From IMG/VR virus record IMGVR_UViG_3300031784_000161, positions 1-28,031 of that record: a stretch of DNA of 28,031 nt. One strand, 5' to 3'. A program made the position numbers and the translations under genes. Below, one piece after another: positions 5,358 to 28,031 of the stretch. The DNA is from a virus. The first letter of the stretch is position 1; each line of letters starts with the position of its first letter. The notes under the pieces were generated by a model. It was not told where the DNA came from. It ran no database searches and was given only the letters and a program-made list of their open reading frames with translations.

Positions 5358-6065
5358 ATGAAAGTAGACGTTAAGATTTTAGAGGAGTTATCAAGATTTA
5401 ACTCAATCAATAAGTATATTTCTGAACAAGAGTTACCGGCACCACCTGTTGACCCATTAGCGGACCCGGCAGCGGCGGGAGCACCACCTGCAGACCCAAT
5501 GGCAGCGGGAGCACCACCTGCGGACCCAATGGCGGCGGGAGCACCACCTGCAGACCCAATGGCAGCGGGAGCACCACCTGCGGGAACACCACCAGCACAA
5601 CCTGCACAACCTGTTGATTTAGCAACAGACCCTGATGTTGAAAAACTTGGGGCTGAAGGAGGTAAGGATGAAAATACGAAAGAAGTTGAAGTAACTGATT
5701 TAGTTAAATCACAAGATAATATTGAAAAGAAACAAGAGGAGTATTTTGATAATTTATTTAATCACTTACAAAATTTAGAAGATAAACTTGGTGAAATGGA
5801 TAATATAGTATCTAAATTAAACAGTTTAGAGGCTAAGATTGATAAATATCGTGTTAAATCACCTGAAGAAAAATTACAATTAAGAACATTGGATTCAGGA
5901 CCTTTTACTCAAAAATTAACTGATTATTTTGAGGATAAAGAGGAAGACTTTGAAAAATTGGGTAGAGAAGAATATATCTTAACGAAAGATGAGGTTGAAG
6001 ATTTCTCACCAAATGAAATTAGAAAGACTTTTAGAAATTTTGAGGATGAAGAAGGGGCTTTTTAA
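5358..6065 (+). CDS. Acidic coiled-coil protein with Ala/Pro decapeptide repeats, probable virion or assembly factor
   Basis: A 235-residue protein. The N-terminus (1-26) is a short helix with ELSRFNSINKYISEQE. Residues about 30-85 are low-complexity, with near-perfect copies of AAGAPPADPM, then PPAGTPPAQPAQPVD. Residues about 110-175 are charged and heptad-like (NIEKKQEEYFDNLFNHLQ, LEAKIDKYRV), and the C-terminal 60 residues are strongly acidic, with EDKEEDFEKLGREEY and a final FEDEEGAF. The layout of anchor helix, flexible Pro/Ala spacer, coiled coil and acidic tail suggests a linker or scaffold-like protein. I do not recognise the family. It is the last gene before a strong terminator and follows the hub-like gene, so it probably belongs to the tail or virion assembly unit. 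The repeat DNA is GC-rich compared with everything around it. Confidence 0.75.
   Translation: MKVDVKILEELSRFNSINKYISEQELPAPPVDPLADPAAAGAPPADPMAAGAPPADPMAAGAPPADPMAAGAPPAGTPPAQPAQPVDLATDPDVEKLGAEGGKDENTKEVEVTDLVKSQDNIEKKQEEYFDNLFNHLQNLEDKLGEMDNIVSKLNSLEAKIDKYRVKSPEEKLQLRTLDSGPFTQKLTDYFEDKEEDFEKLGREEYILTKDEVEDFSPNEIRKTFRNFEDEEGAF
5471..5588 (+). repeat. In-frame 30-bp tandem repeat (Ala/Pro decapeptide)
   Basis: About three and a half copies of a 30-base unit whose starts fall at 5481, 5511, 5541 and 5571 (the last one partial), each beginning gcaccacctgc. Copies differ only at silent A/G third positions. The unit is about two-thirds G+C, against about 30 % in the flanks. The period is a multiple of three, so copy-number change would lengthen or shorten the spacer of the host protein without a frameshift. 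Confidence 0.93.
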
Positions 6066-14503: not shown

Positions 14504-14962
14504 ATGGCATTAGGAGTAACATACGGAATAAATTTTCCATTTAGAGATTCTTCAACAGGTAAATATTTGTCAATGTCGACAACTAACGAAGAAGAAATTA
14601 GAACTAATTTAGTACATCTTTTATTAACAAGAAAAGGTACTCGTTATTATTTACCTGATTTTGGTACTAGATTATATGAATATATATTTGAACCAATGGA
14701 TGGTCCGACATTTTCAGAAATTGAATCTGAAATACGTGATTCTGTTAACGAATATATCCCTAATATAACAATAACAAGTATTAGTGTTAAACCCGCATCT
14801 GAGGGTGAGGAGAACAAAGGTTCGTTTATTACTGATAATGATGAACGTGTTTACAGAGTACCAGGTATTGGGACTATGGAACATACTGCAAAAATAAGAA
14901 TTGATTATAATATTAATGACGACGCTTTTAATTCTAGCGATTTCGTAATAATTAACCTATAA
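14504..14962 (+). CDS. Baseplate wedge protein, GPW/gp25 family
   Basis: A 152-residue protein, near T4 gp25 (132), a baseplate wedge protein also found in type VI secretion systems (TssE) and other contractile injection machines. The diagnostic stretch is LLTRKGTRYYLPDFGTRLYE (40-59) followed by YIFEPMDG, matching the family pattern of a Gly-Thr-Arg turn, 'P-x-F-G-T' and 'F-E-P'. A helix follows (FSEIESEIRDSVNEYIPN), then the beta strands ITITSISVKP and AKIRIDYNIND. The region SEGEENKGSFITDNDERVYR is a small insertion relative to short family members. It is the first gene of the downstream virion module. The gp6-like gene starts four bases after its stop, reproducing the usual gp25-gp6 neighbourhood in contractile tails. 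Confidence 0.93.
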   Translation: MALGVTYGINFPFRDSSTGKYLSMSTTNEEEIRTNLVHLLLTRKGTRYYLPDFGTRLYEYIFEPMDGPTFSEIESEIRDSVNEYIPNITITSISVKPASEGEENKGSFITDNDERVYRVPGIGTMEHTAKIRIDYNINDDAFNSSDFVIINL

Positions 14963-14966
14963 AGAT

Positions 14967-16805
14967 ATGGCAAATAAAAAAATATCGTACACAACAAGAG
15001 ATTTTCAATCAGTAAGAACTGAATTGATTAATTTTACAAAAACTTACTATCCTGAATTATTGGAGAATGTGAATGACGCGGCAGTTTATTCAGTTTTATT
15101 AGATTTGAACGCGGCAGTAACGGATAATTTACAATACAATATTGATAGAAGTATACAAGAGACTGTGTTACAATTTGCACAACAAAGGTCATCTATTTAT
15201 AATATTGCGAGAACTTATGGTCTTAAAATACCGGGTCAGAGACCTTCGGTTGCGTTAGTTGACTTTTCAATTACAGTACCGGCTGCGGGAGATAAGGAAG
15301 ATTTAAATTACTGTGGTTTATTAAGACGAGGGTCTCAAGTAAATGGTTCAGGTCAAGTGTTTGAAACTGTTTATGATATTGATTTTGCATCACCAATAGG
15401 TGGGGATGGTTTTCCCAATAGATTAAAAATACCTAATTTTGACGCTAATAATAAATTACTTAACTATACGATAGTTAAACGAGAAACCGTGGTTAACGGT
15501 ACTACAAAAGTATTTAAAAAAGTTATAACGCCAAATGATGTTAAACCTTTTTATGAGTTATTTTTACCTGAAAAAAATGTTTTGGGTGTTACAAGTGTTA
15601 TAGTTAAAGACGGTACATCGTATGCTAGTACCCCAAGTGCTCAAGAATTTTTAGGGATTGATAATAGATGGTATGAAGTTAAAGCGTTAATTGACGATAG
15701 GGTGTTTGTTGAAGACCCGACTAAAGTGTCTGATAGTCCAGGTATTAAAGTTGGTAAATATGTTCAGACAAGTGATAAGTTTATCACTGAATACACACCT
15801 GAAGGATATTTGAAATTAACTTTTGGTGGTGGTAGTCAATCTGCTGATGAACAACTTAGAGAATTTGCACGTAATGGGTATAAATTAGATTTGTATAAAT
15901 ATTCAAACAACTTTTCATTAGGTAGCACTTTAAAGGCTAATACGACATTATTTGTACAGTATAGAGTTGGAGGTGGTACAAGTAGTAATTTAGGTGTTAA
16001 TGTTATTAATAATATTGGAACGGTTTCATTTTTTGTTAATGGACCATCAGAAAGTTTTAATACCGCAACTGTTAATTCATTAAGATGTAATAACGTAACC
16101 GCGGCGATAGGTGGGGCTAATTTCCCAACTATTGAAGAGGTACGAAATTTAGTGGCGTTTAACTTTTCTGCACAAAACAGAGCGGTTACTGTTAATGATT
16201 ATGATTCATTAATTAGAACAATGCCGTCACAGTTTGGGGCCCCTGCTAAAGTCGCTATAACTGAGGAGAACAACAAAGTTATTATTAAAATGTTGTCATA
16301 TGACGAGTCGGGTAAATTGACTGAAATAATATCAAACACGTTAATGAATAACGTTGCAAATTATTTGTCAAATTATCGTATGATGAATGACTACATTTCA
16401 ATACAGGTTGCTAATGTAATTGACTTAGGATTGAATATTGATGTTGTTTTAGATAATAGTCAAAATCAAGGTGTGGTAATATCACAAATAATTAATTTAG
16501 TGTCTGATTATTTTGAACCAACTAACTTACAAATGGGTGAAAACGTTTACATTTCAGAAATTAGACGACAAATACAATCACAAAATGGTGTTGTGTCAGT
16601 TTCAGATATTAAAGTCTATAACAAAGTTGGGGGTCAATATTCGTCATCACAAACCTCACAACGATATGCTGATAGTGAGACAAGAGAGATAGAATTAATT
16701 GATGATACTATATTTGCACAACCAAGTCAGACATACCAAATTAGATATCCAAATAAAGACATTTTAATCAGAGTTAAGAACTTAACAACAACAAGTTTTA
16801 GTTGA
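14967..16805 (+). CDS. Baseplate wedge protein, gp6 / baseplate J family
   Basis: A 612-residue protein, comparable to T4 gp6 (660), which forms the inner ring of the baseplate wedge and clamps gp25 and gp7. The N-terminus is characteristic: ISYTTRDFQSVRTELINFTK, PELLENVNDAA, then DLNAAVTDNLQYNIDRSIQE and AQQRSSIYNIARTYGLKIPG (about residues 6-92). A beta-rich central region (about 95-370) precedes a typical J-type C-terminal part: EEVRNLVAFNFSAQNRAVTVND (about 390-412; quoted in part, with the SAQNRAVTVNDYDSLI core), and a ring-forming domain with repeated beta-alpha units (VANVIDLGLNIDVVLDNSQ). It ends in TGA, unlike most genes here. A 71-base gap with a large hairpin separates it from the giant gene downstream. 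Confidence 0.93.
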   Translation: MANKKISYTTRDFQSVRTELINFTKTYYPELLENVNDAAVYSVLLDLNAAVTDNLQYNIDRSIQETVLQFAQQRSSIYNIARTYGLKIPGQRPSVALVDFSITVPAAGDKEDLNYCGLLRRGSQVNGSGQVFETVYDIDFASPIGGDGFPNRLKIPNFDANNKLLNYTIVKRETVVNGTTKVFKKVITPNDVKPFYELFLPEKNVLGVTSVIVKDGTSYASTPSAQEFLGIDNRWYEVKALIDDRVFVEDPTKVSDSPGIKVGKYVQTSDKFITEYTPEGYLKLTFGGGSQSADEQLREFARNGYKLDLYKYSNNFSLGSTLKANTTLFVQYRVGGGTSSNLGVNVINNIGTVSFFVNGPSESFNTATVNSLRCNNVTAAIGGANFPTIEEVRNLVAFNFSAQNRAVTVNDYDSLIRTMPSQFGAPAKVAITEENNKVIIKMLSYDESGKLTEIISNTLMNNVANYLSNYRMMNDYISIQVANVIDLGLNIDVVLDNSQNQGVVISQIINLVSDYFEPTNLQMGENVYISEIRRQIQSQNGVVSVSDIKVYNKVGGQYSSSQTSQRYADSETREIELIDDTIFAQPSQTYQIRYPNKDILIRVKNLTTTSFS

Positions 16806-16876: not shown

Positions 16877-19800
16877 ATGTCTAACTCATACAGAATAAGA
16901 ACAACACCCGGTATTGACAAATCAATAAGGGTAACCATAGACCAAGAATTTGATTATCTTGAAATTTTATCTCTAAAACTATTAAGTAGTGAGGTGTATA
17001 CAAGACAATGTTCCGATTACGGAGTAATTGTTGGTCGTGTAAGTGTTAATAATGGTTTTGGTATCCCAAATGCTAAAGTATCGGTTTTCGTTCCGTTATC
17101 TTCAGAAGATGAAAAAAATGAAGTAATAACAACTTTATATCCCTACAAAACATTAACAGATTTAAACGAGGAAGGTTATAAATATAATTTATTACCAACA
17201 GAAAAATCATATTCAAACCACGAACCAACAGGTACATTTTTTACTCGTAAAGATGTATTAACAAATCCAACTAAAATTGAGGTTTTTGATAAGTATTATA
17301 AATATAATGCGGTAACAAACGAAAGTGGGGATTATATGATTTTTGGTGTTCCATTAGGTTCTCAAACAATTGTAGTTAATATTGACTTATCGGACATTGG
17401 TGAATTCTCATTATCACCTCAAGATTTAATTAGAATGGGTGTTGCGACACCTAATCAAGTTAATGGTACTAAATTTAGAGCCTCATCTAATTTAAATGAA
17501 TTACCTCAGATTATTACAATTAATCGTACTTTAGAAGTTGAACCATTATGGGGGGATACTAGTGTTTGTACATTAGGTATCACAAGAACAGACTTTGATT
17601 TATCTGCTGAAAAAAACATTAATATAAAACCAACCGCAATTTTTATGGGGTCTATCATTTCTACAAATGAAGACCACTATATGAAATCAAGATGTAGACC
17701 ATCACTTAAATTAGGTCAACAGTGTAGTTTAGTTACGGGTCCTGGTAGTATATCGGCAATTAGACAAACAATATTTCAAGACACTGACGGTAGACCGACA
17801 CTTGAAGTTGCAAAAGACTTTGAAGAAGGTGGTCAAGTAATTGATGATAACGGTACTTGGATGTTTGATATTCCAATGAACTTGGATTATGTGATAACTA
17901 ATGAATTTGGTGAACAAGTATTATCGTTAGACCCAAAAAAAGGAATTCCAACTAAAGGAAAATATAGATTTAAAATAAAATGGAATCAATCACCTGATAT
18001 GGGTGAAGAGATTAAAAGGGGTTATTTTTTAGTTCCAAATATTAAAGAATATGGTTGGAACACATCAGGAGGTAAAGACCCGTTAACTAATCAATCAGCG
18101 GGTGATTTAGGAAATTTTGGTAATCTTGATAATCCTTGTACCGACGCTTCAAGTAAGTTACCAAACACGAAAGAAGCGAAAATGGCTCACGCGTCATATG
18201 CGTTTAGTTTAAATTGGGATGATTATGGTTATACGGGTACGACTGTTACTGACACACAATATCAGGTTGGGTTAGATATGATTCAGGAGGCTATTGATTG
18301 TAAAGATAGATTTATTGAAATGAGGTATAATAAAGTTTATACTGTTTCTCAATTAATGAGTGAATATAGACGAGGGGATTCTAATAATCGTATTATAGCG
18401 ATTAAAAATATATTGGACGACGCTTGTGATTCAACAAACAATAAGTTTCCATCAAATGACGGGATGTATAGATTGGACATAATTTATTTGTTGTTCTTGG
18501 TTGCAATGTTTGTTGTTTACCCTATTTTATTTATCTTAGTCTTTTTAGTTCATTTATTTCTTTGGATATTATGTAACATTATATTACCCCTCATTAGATT
18601 TTTAAAAGGGGTTGTGTGTACGTTGGCGGATGGTATTTGTCGTATCGCTAACGTGTCTGTTGGTTGGGGTAGACCTTTTGGATTTTTAGATGGTTTATGT
18701 AATAAATTACGTGAAGCCTGTAATAGTTTGACCGATATGGTTGCTAGAATTGAAAAAATTTGTGAAGAGTCAAACTTAAAATTACCAATGTTAACATATC
18801 CTGATTGTGAATTGTGTGGATGTGAACCAGAACCACCAAAACAAGGTCAACCTGAAGGAGGTAATGCTTTAGCGGCGTTCAATACTTCCCAAGGTTCTAA
18901 TAGTGTTTTGGCAGATTTTACTGATTCAGGTCGTTATATTGGACCATATAATAATTCAGGACAATTCCAAAATCCGGGTGCTAGTTCGGGGTATTTTAAT
19001 AATTTTAAATCACCTGATGATAATTTGTTTATCTCAGGTATCTACGTTAAAACACCTAAATCTTGGGACACAAGGTCAATACCGACATTTGTTGATAATC
19101 CCGGTGATGATTGTTCGTCTATTGGGAAAAGAGGTGCTTATGTCCAATCAACTGATTTACCTTGGCATGAAAGAGTTAATTTATTTAATCTTAAATCAAA
19201 ATATTTTGAAAGAAGTAATAATAATCCTGGTGGAGGTGTGAATAGAATTAAAGTTAGATTTAATGTTGATAAAAACGGAGGTCCATTACCTAATAATAAT
19301 AGTATGACAGGTACGTTTCACGAAGATAATGTTCTTGCTATTTTTATTGATGACTCAGAATCACAAAATTTTAAAGTTGGTAATATGTTAACCACTGTTG
19401 ACCCTCAATTTAGTCAAGATATAAATTTAACAGGTGTAACGATACCTAATGATTACGGTACTAATAGTATAACAGGTACAACGATAGGTGTACCAATACC
19501 AGGTAATGACCCTAAACTTAGACAATCACAATATATTGTAAAATATTCAAACCCGAACTACAGTCCAGGTCAACCTGCTGAATTACAAACAACGTATGTT
19601 ATAACGGCTAGTACTGCAACAACAACATATCATAAATTTGGGATGGACTTAGAATATTTCCAAGTTATTGAAAATGTTAGTGTTACTGAATATTTAAATA
19701 ACGTTCAAACATATGTTGGTAATGGTGATTTACCTAATTCATTTTTAACACGAATAGTTAACGCTGGGTATTATCAGTTTGGAACTGCTAGATGTGGTTA

Positions 19801-22774
19801 TAGTTCATTGTATAGGGCTACTAATAATACATTTCAAGCACCTTGTTTAAGTTCAAGAACAGGTACAGGTTTAAATACGGGAGGTATTCCTGGACCTATC
19901 AGAGATTATTTTAAAGATTTTAGTAAAGTAAGAGTCGTATTTATGGTTAGAGGTGTTGACCCAAATTCAACAAGAACAACAGTCTCATACGATTTAAGTA
20001 AATTATATGGTAGTAAAGATTATGGGAAAGTTGTTAGGACTTTACCTAAAATGAAATTAAATATACCTATTAATGGTGGATTTAAAAATGTTAGACATAA
20101 TCTCTCAAAAAGTACTGATGGAGACTCATACAGTGGTATGAAATTATATTATGATTCATTTAGTTGGGAACCTAGTAGAAATTCATTGGGGGTTCCTGTA
20201 GAAATAGACCCCGCAACAAAATTTGACATTAACGGTAATCCACAAACAGGTACTAATTACGACCCTGTAACAAATGACCCTAAATATAGACCTGTCGGTT
20301 ACTGTAATTTTTCAGGGTTTTCAACTAATCAACATCGTTATTATTCGGCAATGGATAGTGCTTGGAACACCAACGTTAATTATAGAAATTTGACAACATC
20401 AACAAGTGACAGTTTTTATGGATTAAGAATGAATGGTAGTACTAGTAGTAAAAACTTAGACGTTAGTGTTAGTGGTAATCTTTTTTATGATGGTAACGGT
20501 CATTGTGGATTTTTCCAAAATGATGGTACTAATACACCGTTTAATGGTTCAATAGGTATAAGAGACAGTGACGGTAATCCACGTTGTAACTCTGACGCAA
20601 TAAGATATTGGAATTTGTGGACCGCAACTGCAGCATCGTGTGCTTATTGTGGTGGTGCTTGTACCCCAAATCCTAACTGTACTTGGAATTGGTGGTATGG
20701 AGGTACTGAATGTTGTTTATATTATCCATATTATTATTTAAATGATGACTCAAGAGATAACGGAAGTAAAACTCAAAACATCTATGATAAACATAATAGA
20801 GGTTATTATCCTAACGAAATAATTGAAGGTGGTTCTGCTAGTGTTATGGGTACTAGAAATCCTACTGTGAATCCTGGATATGAGGTTTCAACTATTACAA
20901 TTGCGACATATTATTATTCTGTTACTTATCATAGTACATCAGGACCATCAATGATTATTGGTGATAGTGCTACGTTAAACGCTGGTTTAGGTGACAATAA
21001 TAGGGCGATAGTGATGAGGACAGATAGATTACCGTCATCATCTTCACCTGAAATAGGTGCTGTGAGTTATCAAAGTTATTGTTTACATGCAAATAATAAC
21101 TTTAGTATGTTTGTTATTGGTGATGATGGAAGTGTGACTTCTTTAGCAGGAAGTTCTGAGGCACAAGGTGTTGGTTCATCAGGAGATAACGCGGCGGCAA
21201 ATGCTCAGAAAACTAAATGTAGTAGGGGTAAAAATGTATTAGACACGTTTAGTTGTCAAAATTTAATACCTTTAGATTGTTATTATGTTAATAAAACTGA
21301 AGACCCTACAAGTCCTTTTATAACCTATTGGGATAAACCATCACCATTAGTTGCTGGTGATAGGGCCACAACCGCGGCATGTTATGGTAATGGTTTAGCA
21401 AGTTCCGACCCATTATATGGTGGTCAACCTGAGTCTATTATGCAAGGTGGTTGTTATCTTTTAGTAACAGTACCATTCGGTACTTTAAAATTAGATTGGG
21501 AGTTACTTAAAGAATGGAGGGCGAGAATGGTTATTGCGTTTGGGGCGTGTAGAAATGTATTCGCACATATGTTCACTAACAATTGGATTAACGGAACATT
21601 GTTTGCTTTTTCATTCAAAAATAACAGATATTTTACGGGTATTAATAGTTCAAACCCTAACACACCTTACAATTGTTATTGTAAAAACACTATGTATATG
21701 GACGCGAGTACAAATAATTTTTATTACAGAAGTTCACCATATAATGTTGAATATAATACTTTCATAGGTAGACGAAATCCGAGAAATTGGTTTACCGCTA
21801 AAGGATTTGGTGGTAATACTAAAGATTTAATGTTTCCAACAACAATTATGGATTTAGGACCTAGAGATATTTACACACAAGAAATAGTTTCAAATAATGA
21901 GTATGATGGTTATGTTATGAAAAATTTAAACAGTACCACATTCCAAGATGTTAGTGAATTGTTGAATTTATTTATCTTAACAAGATTGATTAATAAAACA
22001 TTTATGAAAAAAATAATTGGTAGTGCTAGAATTACCGAATATTTTAGTAGGTCTAATTTAAAAATTGATTCGGATTATGCTCAAATGAATTCAATTAATT
22101 CTGAATTAGGGGTACTTCAGTTTGATTCTGAAAATTATACTAATTGTGACATTTATTTTAATGGTGCTGAAGCTGAAAATGCGGTATTTGGAGTGTTTTA
22201 TTCTTCAAATACTCAGGTTAGAGATTATATAACACCAAAAAGGACTATCATAACTGATGATGTGTCTAAAAACTCAAATAAATTAGATTGTGCGTTTGAA
22301 TACATACCTGTTAAAACTCAAACAGTACCATTTTATCAATGGAATATTAAGAAAAATTATAACGGTGATGATGATGGAAATGTTGACGGTCCATCGCCAC
22401 CTGATAGTATATTTGGAAGTCAAGTTAATGAATGGGATACTAATGGTTATTCGGCTCAGACGGCATTTTTAACTTATGATTATCAAAAATTAGACAGAAT
22501 TGACACTAATTCACGATATTTCAGAACTAAAGGTTCATCGCTTTTAAAATACTATAAAGGATATATTTATTCTGTAGAGGCTGGTACTGAAGAACATGAC
22601 GGTGACATTCAATTTTGGGATAAAAATAGTGTACCACCTGATTCTGAATCGGCAGTAAGTAGGGTTGTAAATACAGGTGCACCGTTTTTCTTCTATTTTG
22701 GTTTAAATAAAGGTAAATCGGCATTTGATAGATTCACTAGAAAGTGGATTGAAACTGATTTTGATATAGAATAA
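16877..22774 (+). CDS. Giant wedge-region virion protein with carboxypeptidase-regulatory-like domain and hydrophobic segment
   Basis: A 1965-residue protein following gp25-like and gp6-like genes, the place of T4 gp7 (1032 residues); I cannot show homology to gp7. Residues about 48-170 resemble a carboxypeptidase-regulatory/transthyretin-like beta sandwich (GVIVGRVSVNNGFGIPNAKV, and later TNESGDYMIFGVPLGSQTI). Residues 535-573 are almost wholly hydrophobic (IIYLLFLVAMFVVYPILF then ILVFLVHLFLWILCNII), enough for two membrane-spanning helices, which is unusual for a baseplate protein. A Cys-rich stretch follows (about 581-650, with CELCGCEPEPP). A second Cys cluster holds C1255, C1258, C1262, C1268, C1279 and C1280 among Trp/Tyr/Gly. 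The rest is Asn/Gly/Ser/Thr/Tyr-rich and beta-like. There is no catalytic motif I recognise. Its start has a hairpin upstream, and the next gene begins four bases after the stop. Confidence 0.72.
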   Translation: MSNSYRIRTTPGIDKSIRVTIDQEFDYLEILSLKLLSSEVYTRQCSDYGVIVGRVSVNNGFGIPNAKVSVFVPLSSEDEKNEVITTLYPYKTLTDLNEEGYKYNLLPTEKSYSNHEPTGTFFTRKDVLTNPTKIEVFDKYYKYNAVTNESGDYMIFGVPLGSQTIVVNIDLSDIGEFSLSPQDLIRMGVATPNQVNGTKFRASSNLNELPQIITINRTLEVEPLWGDTSVCTLGITRTDFDLSAEKNINIKPTAIFMGSIISTNEDHYMKSRCRPSLKLGQQCSLVTGPGSISAIRQTIFQDTDGRPTLEVAKDFEEGGQVIDDNGTWMFDIPMNLDYVITNEFGEQVLSLDPKKGIPTKGKYRFKIKWNQSPDMGEEIKRGYFLVPNIKEYGWNTSGGKDPLTNQSAGDLGNFGNLDNPCTDASSKLPNTKEAKMAHASYAFSLNWDDYGYTGTTVTDTQYQVGLDMIQEAIDCKDRFIEMRYNKVYTVSQLMSEYRRGDSNNRIIAIKNILDDACDSTNNKFPSNDGMYRLDIIYLLFLVAMFVVYPILFILVFLVHLFLWILCNIILPLIRFLKGVVCTLADGICRIANVSVGWGRPFGFLDGLCNKLREACNSLTDMVARIEKICEESNLKLPMLTYPDCELCGCEPEPPKQGQPEGGNALAAFNTSQGSNSVLADFTDSGRYIGPYNNSGQFQNPGASSGYFNNFKSPDDNLFISGIYVKTPKSWDTRSIPTFVDNPGDDCSSIGKRGAYVQSTDLPWHERVNLFNLKSKYFERSNNNPGGGVNRIKVRFNVDKNGGPLPNNNSMTGTFHEDNVLAIFIDDSESQNFKVGNMLTTVDPQFSQDINLTGVTIPNDYGTNSITGTTIGVPIPGNDPKLRQSQYIVKYSNPNYSPGQPAELQTTYVITASTATTTYHKFGMDLEYFQVIENVSVTEYLNNVQTYVGNGDLPNSFLTRIVNAGYYQFGTARCGYSSLYRATNNTFQAPCLSSRTGTGLNTGGIPGPIRDYFKDFSKVRVVFMVRGVDPNSTRTTVSYDLSKLYGSKDYGKVVRTLPKMKLNIPINGGFKNVRHNLSKSTDGDSYSGMKLYYDSFSWEPSRNSLGVPVEIDPATKFDINGNPQTGTNYDPVTNDPKYRPVGYCNFSGFSTNQHRYYSAMDSAWNTNVNYRNLTTSTSDSFYGLRMNGSTSSKNLDVSVSGNLFYDGNGHCGFFQNDGTNTPFNGSIGIRDSDGNPRCNSDAIRYWNLWTATAASCAYCGGACTPNPNCTWNWWYGGTECCLYYPYYYLNDDSRDNGSKTQNIYDKHNRGYYPNEIIEGGSASVMGTRNPTVNPGYEVSTITIATYYYSVTYHSTSGPSMIIGDSATLNAGLGDNNRAIVMRTDRLPSSSSPEIGAVSYQSYCLHANNNFSMFVIGDDGSVTSLAGSSEAQGVGSSGDNAAANAQKTKCSRGKNVLDTFSCQNLIPLDCYYVNKTEDPTSPFITYWDKPSPLVAGDRATTAACYGNGLASSDPLYGGQPESIMQGGCYLLVTVPFGTLKLDWELLKEWRARMVIAFGACRNVFAHMFTNNWINGTLFAFSFKNNRYFTGINSSNPNTPYNCYCKNTMYMDASTNNFYYRSSPYNVEYNTFIGRRNPRNWFTAKGFGGNTKDLMFPTTIMDLGPRDIYTQEIVSNNEYDGYVMKNLNSTTFQDVSELLNLFILTRLINKTFMKKIIGSARITEYFSRSNLKIDSDYAQMNSINSELGVLQFDSENYTNCDIYFNGAEAENAVFGVFYSSNTQVRDYITPKRTIITDDVSKNSNKLDCAFEYIPVKTQTVPFYQWNIKKNYNGDDDGNVDGPSPPDSIFGSQVNEWDTNGYSAQTAFLTYDYQKLDRIDTNSRYFRTKGSSLLKYYKGYIYSVEAGTEEHDGDIQFWDKNSVPPDSESAVSRVVNTGAPFFFYFGLNKGKSAFDRFTRKWIETDFDIE

Positions 22775-22778
22775 TTAA

Positions 22779-24539
22779 ATGGGTAATAATAATGAAATAA
22801 GAGTGGTATTAGGTTCGTTGAGATATAAATCAGCGTCTAATACCACTATTGGTTTAAAACTACCGTTAATTCAAACGGCTAAAGAAAATATTGAGTTTGA
22901 TAGAAATATTAATATTAGTTTGGCGGAGGTGTTTGATAGAGAAAGACAAAAGTCAACAATATTTAGACCTACCTGTAAATTTTCATTATTGTTTAAAAAT
23001 TCATATACTGGTAGTACTAATTACGTACCTTTTGAAAATAATTTATATTATGTCAATGCCGCAACTGCGGCGAAAAACCAATGTGACCAAACTGCTGAAA
23101 ATGTGTCTTGGAGTGGGTTACCACAGTATAACGAGTTTGATTTTATTCGTAATGATTATAATGTTGTTGGATATACACAACCACCAAATAACCACATTAG
23201 GTTTGTTAATAAAAGTGCGTCAACGTACAATTGGAATTTTTTCTTGAGTTATCCTTATGATAATAACTATAATAAACAAATGTCGGCGTTTGATACGGTT
23301 AATAACAATACATTAACGTGGGTTTCGGGTGATGGGATTCCGTTTTCTATAACAATGACTAGTGAAAACGGAACAAATGTTGTTAGGTTTACTTGTCCTG
23401 GTAAACACGGATTATCTGTTGGTGAATTTGTTAAGTTAAGTTTTAAGTATAATAATGACGAATATTTTGAAGTGTTCTCATTAGGTGATGGTAGAATTAA
23501 TAGTGATAAATACATCTTTAATATTATTAATTATGGGTTTGTTGGAACAACGTTTTCAAATGGTGTGACAGGAACGTTTAAACGAGTTTTAGATGTTAAC
23601 AATCCAAGTAATAGTACCTCAGAATATTACGTAAAAACAAACAAACTAATTTCAAATGTTGAGGACGCGGTATTGGTTAATGCTGGATTTGAACAGAATA
23701 TTTTTGGTAAAGTTAAAAAGTTTGAAAGTAGTGGTTTCACTCCAAATTATATTGAAAGAACGTCAATTAAAGAAGGTGCACAATCTTATACACTAACGTT
23801 TAATAAAGATTTTGATATATCACCTTTAAGAGATAATCAAAAACGGCCAATTACTGAATTATATTTTACTGTAATATGGCAAGGATATTTTGGATGGACG
23901 TTTGGTGTTGCTAATAGTGAATTACAACAAGGTTATGAATGGAATTTACAATTAAACGGTAATACACCTAACCCTTGGTGGAGTAATACTAACAATGATT
24001 CTAAAACAGGGTTTCCACTTGGTAGGTACTCAAGTCCTATGGGTACTGCACTAACAGGTCAATTCACATATGTTAAACCACTAAAATATGGTGATATAAT
24101 TGATGGTGATTACTGTGAATGGAATGACGTAGAACAAACTGAAAGAACTATTTCAACACTATACCATAAATTTAAATTTAATCCTAAAGTATTTGATATT
24201 CGTGGAAAAGCGGTTGGTACTGATAATTTATTTGGATATTATTATCAACCTCATCATAAGTTAACAATACGTAAATATTCGGATTATGTTGAGAATGCTG
24301 ACCCAACAGTTATTGATATACCTGATTATTCGTATTATGATACGACACAACAACAGTTTATTTGGAGGGATATCTATACGTATGGGTTTTTTGATTCTGA
24401 TGGTAGAGGTGTTGATTATCCGTTTATAAATGGTAAACACTACCCAAGTATGAATTCAATATTTAGAATTATACCTGAAGGAACTAACTATGTTAGTGAT
24501 AATATTGTACCTGAACCAACTACAGATGAGTGTGAATAA
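22779..24539 (+). CDS. Virion-type protein of unknown function (586 aa)
   Basis: A 586-residue protein I do not recognise. The N-terminus (GNNNEIRVVLGSLRYKS, then NISLAEVFDRERQKS) is followed by Asn/Tyr/Phe-rich beta-like sequence. Residues about 193-225 include VRFTCPGKHGLSVGEFVKLS, similar to the 'HGLSVGD-x-V' turn seen in many tail-fibre and baseplate proteins. Later parts have WQGYFGWTFGV and many Tyr/Trp-rich turns, and the C-terminus is acidic (PEPTTDECE). There is no signal peptide, membrane segment or enzyme motif. Its placement directly behind the giant wedge-region gene, with a four-base gap, and a 14-base overlap with the next gene argue for a baseplate or fibre-attachment component. 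Confidence 0.78.
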   Translation: MGNNNEIRVVLGSLRYKSASNTTIGLKLPLIQTAKENIEFDRNINISLAEVFDRERQKSTIFRPTCKFSLLFKNSYTGSTNYVPFENNLYYVNAATAAKNQCDQTAENVSWSGLPQYNEFDFIRNDYNVVGYTQPPNNHIRFVNKSASTYNWNFFLSYPYDNNYNKQMSAFDTVNNNTLTWVSGDGIPFSITMTSENGTNVVRFTCPGKHGLSVGEFVKLSFKYNNDEYFEVFSLGDGRINSDKYIFNIINYGFVGTTFSNGVTGTFKRVLDVNNPSNSTSEYYVKTNKLISNVEDAVLVNAGFEQNIFGKVKKFESSGFTPNYIERTSIKEGAQSYTLTFNKDFDISPLRDNQKRPITELYFTVIWQGYFGWTFGVANSELQQGYEWNLQLNGNTPNPWWSNTNNDSKTGFPLGRYSSPMGTALTGQFTYVKPLKYGDIIDGDYCEWNDVEQTERTISTLYHKFKFNPKVFDIRGKAVGTDNLFGYYYQPHHKLTIRKYSDYVENADPTVIDIPDYSYYDTTQQQFIWRDIYTYGFFDSDGRGVDYPFINGKHYPSMNSIFRIIPEGTNYVSDNIVPEPTTDECE

Positions 24540-26529: not shown

Positions 26530-27438
26530 ATGGCAACAGGAACATATGGAACTATTAGGCCGGCTGACGTATCACCGGAAGATGTTGAAATAATTATGAA
26601 TTACACCCCATCTAGGGATGATACTGAAAACTTTGTTTTAACAAAATTAAACTCAAGTGCGATATTACGACCATACTTTAATAATTCAAGTACGGGTGGT
26701 AATGCGGGTGTTGAAATATTAGGTGGTTTATATAATTTGAAATTACCGGCAGACCAATTTGATAAAATTGGGATTTATACATTATATGTTAGACCCGCAC
26801 AAATTAGAACTAAAATATTAGATTGTGGGGTTTTATCATCATTACCAAATGTTAAGGGATTAGTCTTTGATTTAAATTCTGTACCATCTGATTACAGAAA
26901 CAAATTTGTTAATCAAGGATTGGCAGGATTCAGAATTGAATACTTAAATGATGACGGTACTAAGATACCTAATTTTTTTAGAATAATAACATCATCGTTT
27001 TTCTGTGAAGCGGTTGTTCAAAATTTAACAAATACATCACAAAAAGCGATAAGATATAGATATAGTGAAACGAATACAAATTTAATGTTTTGTACTGTTT
27101 CACCATCATCATCACCAACTAATAAGCCAAACGCAACACCGTATATTGGTCAACCCGCACAAAACGTGATTATAACAAATACGTTTTTTAACCCTATCAC
27201 TATTGATATTGAAATGGCTGAACACGATTTCTCAACATTGGCAATTGCATTGTATGGTAATCAAACTAAGTCTATGGATGATGGTATTTACACACTTTAC
27301 GATACTAACGATAACATTTACAAACAATACAACTTATACGAAATTAGAGACCAATTTAATCACTTACTATATGAGGTTAGACAAGATAGAGGTAGTAATA
27401 TTGATTTTAGTAAAAACTTTACAAATATAACACAATAA
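26530..27438 (+). CDS. Virion-type protein of unknown function (302 aa)
   Basis: A 302-residue protein, not recognised. The N-terminus (MATGTYGTIRPADVSPEDVE) is followed by a beta-rich body (GGLYNLKLPADQFDKIGIYT, LYVRPAQIRTKILDCG), an Asn/Thr/Ser/Pro-rich middle linker (SPSSSPTNKPNATPYIGQ, about 191-208) and a C-terminal part that looks helical and amphipathic (KQYNLYEIRDQFNHLLYEVR). The start is one base after the previous stop, and its own stop shares a base with the next ATG (TAATG). The gene lies in the middle of a coupled string of large beta-rich proteins, so a tail or baseplate component is likely by context. No enzyme motif is visible. Confidence 0.8.
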   Translation: MATGTYGTIRPADVSPEDVEIIMNYTPSRDDTENFVLTKLNSSAILRPYFNNSSTGGNAGVEILGGLYNLKLPADQFDKIGIYTLYVRPAQIRTKILDCGVLSSLPNVKGLVFDLNSVPSDYRNKFVNQGLAGFRIEYLNDDGTKIPNFFRIITSSFFCEAVVQNLTNTSQKAIRYRYSETNTNLMFCTVSPSSSPTNKPNATPYIGQPAQNVIITNTFFNPITIDIEMAEHDFSTLAIALYGNQTKSMDDGIYTLYDTNDNIYKQYNLYEIRDQFNHLLYEVRQDRGSNIDFSKNFTNITQ

Positions 27439-28031
27439 TGGCGATTAAAAAATTTATATGTCCACCAACTCCGGCAACGGGTGCTGGGTCATTCTCGGAT
27501 GACTTAGTTGGATTTCAATTGGTACAAGGGGGAGGATTAACTCAAGGTAATTTCTCATTTACGACTGCGATTAATGAGAAACAGAATAGAACGTTTAATA
27601 CAGGAGTTTTTTCACAACCGATTAGTTTAGACACGATGGGGATTGATAGTGTTAGTCAATCTAAAACAATATTTGAAAACAATTTCAAAGTCTATCCTAA
27701 CTTTGATTTAAGTCAAGTTACTAATTTTACAATGTATGGGTCTTTAGTTAAAAGATTTTCAGTTTCAGTACAAAAAATTATTAGTTATTTTCCTGCGGCA
27801 ATTGAGTCAACATTTACCGGTATTAATTATTTAACAGGTGCTACCGCATTTAATGCGACATATAATAAAGCCTCAGATATAACAACATTCAGTATTGATG
27901 TTGGCAGATTAAGAAACCCGTTTGACGTTGATTTTACGGTTGACGCAACAAGAAATTTATCGTTAAGAGAAATTCAAGTTTCGGAACTTAGAAATTTAAC
28001 GGTTAATTATGCAAAATATTCATTATATTAT
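27438..28031 (+). CDS. Virion-type protein of unknown function, 3' partial (198 aa visible)
   Basis: An ATG at 27438 overlaps the previous stop by one base and the frame stays open to the last base of the window, 198 codons, so the gene continues beyond it. The visible part begins MAIKKFICPPTPATGAGSF, then Gly/Gln/Asn-rich sequence (FQLVQGGGLTQGNFSFTTA), then FDLSQVTNFTMYGSLVKRFS and a beta-like end (FDVDFTVDATRNLSLREIQ). I recognise no domain. Codon use and AT bias match the neighbours. By position it is another tail or baseplate protein; whether it is as large as the truncated protein at the window start cannot be seen. Confidence 0.82.
   Translation, partial: MAIKKFICPPTPATGAGSFSDDLVGFQLVQGGGLTQGNFSFTTAINEKQNRTFNTGVFSQPISLDTMGIDSVSQSKTIFENNFKVYPNFDLSQVTNFTMYGSLVKRFSVSVQKIISYFPAAIESTFTGINYLTGATAFNATYNKASDITTFSIDVGRLRNPFDVDFTVDATRNLSLREIQVSELRNLTVNYAKYSLYY

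Follow-up and report, generated by a model that had tools for sequence, protein, structure and literature searches.

Does part of the tail of a contractile-tailed phage enter or bind a bacterial membrane? The question is raised by a virus record of 28,031 nucleotides (IMGVR_UViG_3300031784_000161, positions 1 to 28,031; hereafter the window, meaning this whole stretch), which comes from a T4-like phage. Its gene order runs from ribonucleotide reductase genes, recognized by reading the sequence, through gp25 and gp6 to the ORF of a very large protein (hereafter the giant), in the middle of which lies a long hydrophobic segment (Table 1). The segment is real, conserved and unusual; its function is a prediction only.

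Table 1. Features of the window, with positions counted from its first nucleotide.
Feature	Position	Strand	Basis
gp25-like baseplate wedge protein / sheath initiator	14504..14962	+	Pfam GPW_gp25 6e-13, phrog_261 2e-21
gp6-like baseplate wedge protein, just 5' of the giant	14967..16805	+	phrog_219 3e-20
1965-aa giant protein of an undescribed family	16877..22774	+	ORF directly after the gp6 gene
Predicted TTR / carboxypeptidase-D-tail-like beta domain with large insertion, residues 47-249	17015..17623	+	VIA-align, sub-threshold Pfam match
Cys475	18299..18301	+	94/94 core members; gapped in the alignment of the outgroups compared
Cys517	18425..18427	+	94/94 core members
Hydrophobic run, residues 535-573	18479..18595	+	Translation
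Predicted single long helix with one narrow polar stripe, residues 535-594	18479..18658	+	AlphaFold, 100-degree periodicity
Pro549, ~85% conserved; preceding residue usually Arg, Thr or Lys	18521..18523	+	
His559, invariant within the hydrophobic helix	18551..18553	+	69/69 non-redundant core members
Second predicted helix, folding back onto the first, residues 602-631	18680..18769	+	AlphaFold
Cys644-x2-Cys647-x-Cys649	18806..18823	+	94, 94 and 91 of 94 core members
Conserved 586-aa partner gene 3' of the giant, also present in outgroups	22779..24539	+	
Start of a ~1004-aa protein (whole in L004:18325-21339)	27438..28031	+	

A strongly hydrophobic segment in a giant protein

The original prediction placed a hydrophobic run at residues 535-573 of the giant, and its coordinates proved exact. 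Translation of this stretch yielded IIYLLFLVAMFVVYPILFILVFLVHLFLWILCNIILPLI, followed by RFLK, with a mean Kyte-Doolittle (KD) hydropathy of 2.71 over 39 residues. This is far above chance, as none of 20,000 shuffled versions of the protein reached it (maximum 2.0). One His and one Asn were present as described, together with one Cys, one Trp and two Tyr, but there were two prolines (Pro549 and Pro571) instead of one. The basic RFLK flank, which had also been pointed out, does follow the run in the window, whereas relatives are mostly hydrophobic at this place, leaving the flank unconserved. The best 19-mer of the giant (KD 3.01) was equalled in about 1 of 20,000 shuffles, and none of the remaining ORFs of at least 150 aa in the window had a 19-mer above 1.91. 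Across the loci of relatives, 5 of 877 other ORFs (at least 250 aa) reached 2.2, and these five resemble the gene for a small membrane hydrolase that one subclade carries and that is described below.

Toward the N-terminus, residues 47-249 aligned by VIA-align with 5aq0, the TTR-like domain of carboxypeptidase D (Z 8.5, 24% identity), and with many other TTR-like domains at Z ~8, the model being of low confidence overall; this resemblance in predicted fold is uninformative on the hydrophobic part. The Pfam match to CarboxypepD_reg scored 16 bits against a curated cut-off of 32.3. Besides the cysteines in Table 1, those at residues 45, 231, 273 and 283 are nearly invariant (91-94 of 94) and mostly gone in outgroups, and are possible metal sites.

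Conservation of hydrophobicity across three diverged clades

The giant belongs to a large, undescribed family that is absent from Pfam and PHROGs: it had no PHROG match, and the sub-threshold CarboxypepD_reg match was its sole match in Pfam. Searches by tblastn with the giants of the window, clade B and clade C found no relative among ~50,700 phage records, one further family member gave a marginal partial match only, and no cultured relative was found in this phage collection. Among metagenomic virus contigs, clade-A profiles retrieved 251 and at least 535 relatives, the clade-B query 161 and the clade-C query 226; these sets overlap, and the total amounts to several hundred. An outgroup of the L093 type had no relatives in viral contigs.

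A loss of hydrophobicity in homologues had been named as speaking against a membrane segment, and this test did not refute it. Among relatives longer than 650 aa from the three diverged metagenomic clades, a hydrophobic maximum (19-mer KD ≥1.8) was found at the equivalent place in 285 of 291 proteins (clade A, 143/143; clade B, 72/77; clade C, 70/71); a strong segment was missing in L089, L093, L261 and L273. The 75 distinct clade-A 31-mers shared on average 34% identity with that of the window (minimum 6%), and the lowest mean hydropathy among them was 1.76, so that all 75 exceeded the mean of 1.55 obtained by BLOSUM62 drift to the same identities. That hydropathy was held while identity fell points to selection on hydrophobicity more than on sequence. 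Using a translocon score that is a simple sum of a published scale (centre-of-membrane values only), we obtained sums below 0 for 140 of 147 giants, with a median of -3.45. In clade B, which is less hydrophobic and in which the polar stripe described below is charged, the median was +0.37 and 34 of 78 sums were below 0.

A predicted long helix with a narrow polar stripe

AlphaFold modelled the giant with a mean pLDDT of 53, mostly as strand and coil, and residues 1060-1965 were unusable (pLDDT 45); the helix at residues 535-594 had a pLDDT of ~71-83 from residue 541 onward. A model this weak does not decide whether the helix lies in a trimer core or in a membrane. A PDB fold look-up with the helical part returned generic helical pairs only, at a Z of ~9 that is below the level meaningful for helices, and a PDB sequence search with the giant profile gave one chance-level match (E 0.1).

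Column-averaged hydropathy was periodic at 100 degrees in clade A (residues 535-592, P<0.0002), clade B (P=0.0006) and clade C (P<0.0002), where the P values come from column permutation and are indicative only, the block limits having been picked after the data were seen. The repeat in all three clades indicates one long helix that is hydrophobic on most faces. At 100 degrees per residue, the polar directions of blocks 535-548, 549-565, 568-580 and 580-593 agreed within ~60 degrees, as would be expected for one kinked helix. We therefore dropped the idea of a hairpin of two short helices split at Pro549, since the phase of the stripe is roughly equal on both sides of this residue and AlphaFold predicted one helix running through it. 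What stands of the membrane-segment idea is a membrane-type hydrophobicity that is kept in relatives and is far stronger than in gp7, the soluble control.

The polar stripe is narrow: hydropathy averages ~0 within a 40-degree sector centred on it, against 3.6 on the other side. In clade A it contains the invariant His559 and usually also Arg/Thr/Lys548 and Tyr/Phe552; its residues in clade C are Thr, Gly, His and Asn, and those in clade B Lys and Asn. In a soluble coiled coil the stripe is hydrophobic and the outside is polar; a wide hydrophobic surface interrupted by one thin stripe of small or polar residues would fit a membrane-embedded helical bundle better. Residues 535-566 are universal in the core clade, whereas the second half of the helix (568-593) is optional and missing in L153, L140, L032 and L083, and the whole hydrophobic domain spans 40-114 residues across relatives, varying by helix-sized units. 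Since no helical periodicity of entropy was found within 535-566, this part shows no clearly variable, lipid-facing side. At the base of the hydrophobic domain, Cys517 and Cys644/647/649 may be joined in a metal or disulfide knot.

Taken from sequence and predicted structure, the reading that we favor, at somewhat less than an even chance, is that a large protein associated with the baseplate carries, midway along its chain, a helix that inserts into membranes, or a compact domain of one to three hydrophobic helices.

Comparison with soluble T4 gp7

The main alternative, which we consider a serious possibility though a less likely one, is that the helix never meets lipid and is instead buried at the centre of a soluble oligomer. 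Several copies of the giant, or gp6 and neighbouring proteins, would wrap its hydrophobic faces, with the stripe turned toward solvent or an axial space. One argument for this alternative comes from T4 gp7. The original prediction held that gp7 is not known for such segments; however, GenBank notes on gp7 of T4 and RB49 (L164:7061-10159, L184:1578-4664) read 'predicted integral membrane', although the solved structure of T4 gp7 shows a soluble protein of the baseplate wedge. A continuous helix of 60 residues, as predicted by AlphaFold, also exceeds one membrane crossing, the hydrophobic positions of 535-566 are conserved on all faces as the lack of entropy periodicity indicates, and clade B carries Lys in its stripe, all of which favor a buried core.

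Quantitatively, the two proteins differ. The gp7 segment (T4 residues 886-908) had a translocon sum of -0.17 in T4 and +2.0 to +2.8 in six gp7 relatives, where its sequence is conserved yet insertion-incompetent by this simple scale, and other T4 baseplate proteins lay between +2 and +11. These scores place the giant family well outside the range of gp7, a single solved example, but clade B overlaps with it. Whereas the gp7 segment is thus not insertion-competent in close relatives, the hydrophobicity of the giant is stronger and has been held despite sequence drift. The gain and loss of helix-sized hydrophobic units is unlike a tight core, and the Gly, Asn, Thr and His of the clade C stripe are typical of packing inside membranes, which further argues against a buried core.

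Genomic setting and probable host

The nearest cultured gp6 proteins were those of Flavobacterium phage immuto and Microcystis phage Mel-JY01 (25-26% identity); neither phage had a counterpart of the giant or a strong hydrophobic segment in the large proteins after gp6. In clade A, a gp6 homologue lay less than 400 nt upstream of the giant in 109 of 141 loci, with most others at ~1 kb, and it lay within 2.5 kb upstream in 66 of 68 clade B loci and 64 of 65 clade C loci. A contractile sheath gene was present in all six large relative contigs examined, and the tail module of a 143-kb relative contained sheath, tube and gp53-like genes. The sheath ORFs (G001-G006; L177:11660-14983 in G004) are unusually long at ~1110-1270 aa, and their family match lies close to the C-terminus.

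A Bacteroidota host is likely, as inferred from several giant relatives found in MAGs labelled Bacteroidota or Paludibacteraceae. Moraphages are large aquatic phages with predicted Bacteroidota hosts and a core genome that includes T4-like gp6, gp25, tube and sheath genes, in which no tape measure gene was identified (PMC12619734). The window lineage resembles them, by described features, in its core baseplate genes and its predicted Bacteroidota hosts (PMC12619734).

Several other features of these loci were observed. In the 235-aa protein encoded at window positions 5358-6065, AAGAPPADPM is tandemly repeated close to the N-terminus. Between nrdA and gp25, at L004:4569-5926 and L005:6234-7016, these two relatives carry a 260-aa ORF that is absent from the window, accompanied in L004 by a 192-aa ORF. 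A downstream protein of L003:13982-16153 and L008:9732-11990 contains repeated beta-sandwich-like units that by eye are like Bacteroidota surface-protein repeats. In one subclade, gp6 and the giant are separated by an ORF of 292-305 aa whose product combines two hydrophobic segments at the N-terminus with an alpha/beta-hydrolase domain containing GHSIGG (weak Pfam matches). This ORF was found in the region of L030:9014-9970 and in 23 other loci (L049-L052, L062-L064, L066, L072, L078, L079, L085, L107, L108, L114, L117, L137-L139, L149, L151, L157 and L159), which also have the longest giant hydrophobic domains, an association confounded by shared ancestry.

We considered it improbable that the segment acts in the producing cell, either by tethering the protein or a nascent baseplate to the inner membrane or as part of a morphogenesis factor outside the virion. 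A nascent cytosolic protein with such a hydrophobic segment would be a natural SRP/Sec target, and in one subclade the adjoining gene encodes the apparent two-helix membrane-anchored hydrolase. However, the giant is very large, beta-rich and encoded in the baseplate gene block, as for a structural part, and release of virions would need a detachment step.

The ~1004-aa protein encoded at the end of the window shares a region with the large post-gp6 protein of immuto and Mel-JY01 (E ~1e-5 to 5e-7) and is thereby a better candidate for that place than the giant; it had no match to T4 gp7. It carries a KGTRKSIETL motif that is by eye reminiscent of P2 gpI and T4 gp7, which profile comparison did not confirm. 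The giant, for its part, resembles T4 gp7 in being very large, encoded right after gp6 and endowed with one hydrophobic segment, but the gp7 segment is short, Gly-rich and C-terminal, and it loses its hydrophobicity in relatives. T4 gp7 matches Pfam Gp7_helical/5th/6th and phrog_964, none of which the giant matches. Comparisons of the giant profile with gp7 by hmmsearch and hhalign were not significant, and nothing significant was found against the baseplate proteins of immuto, Mel-JY01, LR756508 and T4. A gp7-like identity of the giant therefore finds no support in PHROG, hmmsearch or profile alignment. That the giant is the gp7 equivalent, with its segment corresponding to T4 residues 886-908, is very improbable despite the shared position after gp6 and the single hydrophobic segment of each, given the lack of similarity, the location of the segment in mid-protein and not near the C-terminus, and the fact that the ~1004-aa neighbour shares the region with the post-gp6 gene of immuto and Mel-JY01.

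Discussion

Our analysis of the giant suggests that a conserved helix allows part of the tail to enter or bind a bacterial membrane or, alternatively, serves as a buried structural core. The membrane reading draws on the retention of the segment in 285 of 291 relatives, the translocon sums, the 100-degree periodicity, the helix-sized changes in size, the bracketing by Cys517, Cys644 and Cys647 (94/94), the adjoining gp6 gene, the contractile sheath (6/6) and the precedent of T5 pb2. It is weakened by clade B, in which the less hydrophobic segment with its charged stripe is closer to a partly buried amphipathic helix, by gp7, which shows that the predicted membrane segment of a wedge protein can be soluble, and by the weak AlphaFold model, the lack of entropy periodicity in 535-566 and the four segment-less proteins.

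For T5, it has been proposed that 46 hydrophobic residues of the tail protein pb2 enter the outer membrane (PMC10038345). Like pb2, whose stretch is compatible with about two membrane helices (PMC10038345), the giant is a tail-locus protein with a hydrophobic stretch of membrane-crossing length, and this stretch is kept in its relatives. By analogy, the pb2 stretch would be the nearest functional precedent for the segment, although pb2 is a tape measure inside a siphophage tube, whereas the giant is not rich in coiled coil and is encoded in the baseplate wedge locus of contractile-tailed phages. The diffocin tape measure CD1366, with five predicted membrane helices (PMC10996793), likewise belongs to a contractile injection system, but its helices sit in the tape measure and not in the wedge. 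Nothing relevant came up in full-text literature searches for baseplate proteins containing a transmembrane hairpin. The giant itself does not fit a tape measure, given its distance from tube and sheath (~25-30 kb in G004, where only 27% of its residues are AEKLQRM) and its low helicity in the models. A 626-aa protein whose gene follows shortly after that of the tube in the 143-kb relative is a positional tape-measure candidate with no family match, and it is without a hydrophobic segment.

Under the membrane reading, the segment would be a mid-chain excursion of a large protein that is associated with the baseplate of T4-like phages, whose hosts are probably Bacteroidota. Several copies may pack via the polar stripe, through contacts of His, Arg/Thr and Tyr in the clade of the window, of Gly, Asn, Thr and His in clade C, and of Lys and Asn in clade B, turning their hydrophobic face toward lipid. 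The resting baseplate would shield the segment, and opening of the baseplate, probably on infection, would expose it. A membrane-type helix may in this way insert into the host envelope and anchor the tail in the host membrane, or help to open that membrane. More tentatively, and with a rather low probability in our estimate, the inside-out helix may assemble around the contracted tail into a bundle or pore that spans the membrane, such that a wedge-locus protein, and not the tape measure, anchors or opens the membrane.

In summary, a membrane-type helix is under selection in several hundred relatives and is encoded next to baseplate genes, in a family that is missing from Pfam and PHROGs and merits a name in annotation. 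Little is yet understood of how the DNA of contractile-tailed phages passes the inner membrane once the tube has gone through the outer one. Residues ~510-655 of the giant, with the invariant His559, represent a directly testable candidate part for this step.
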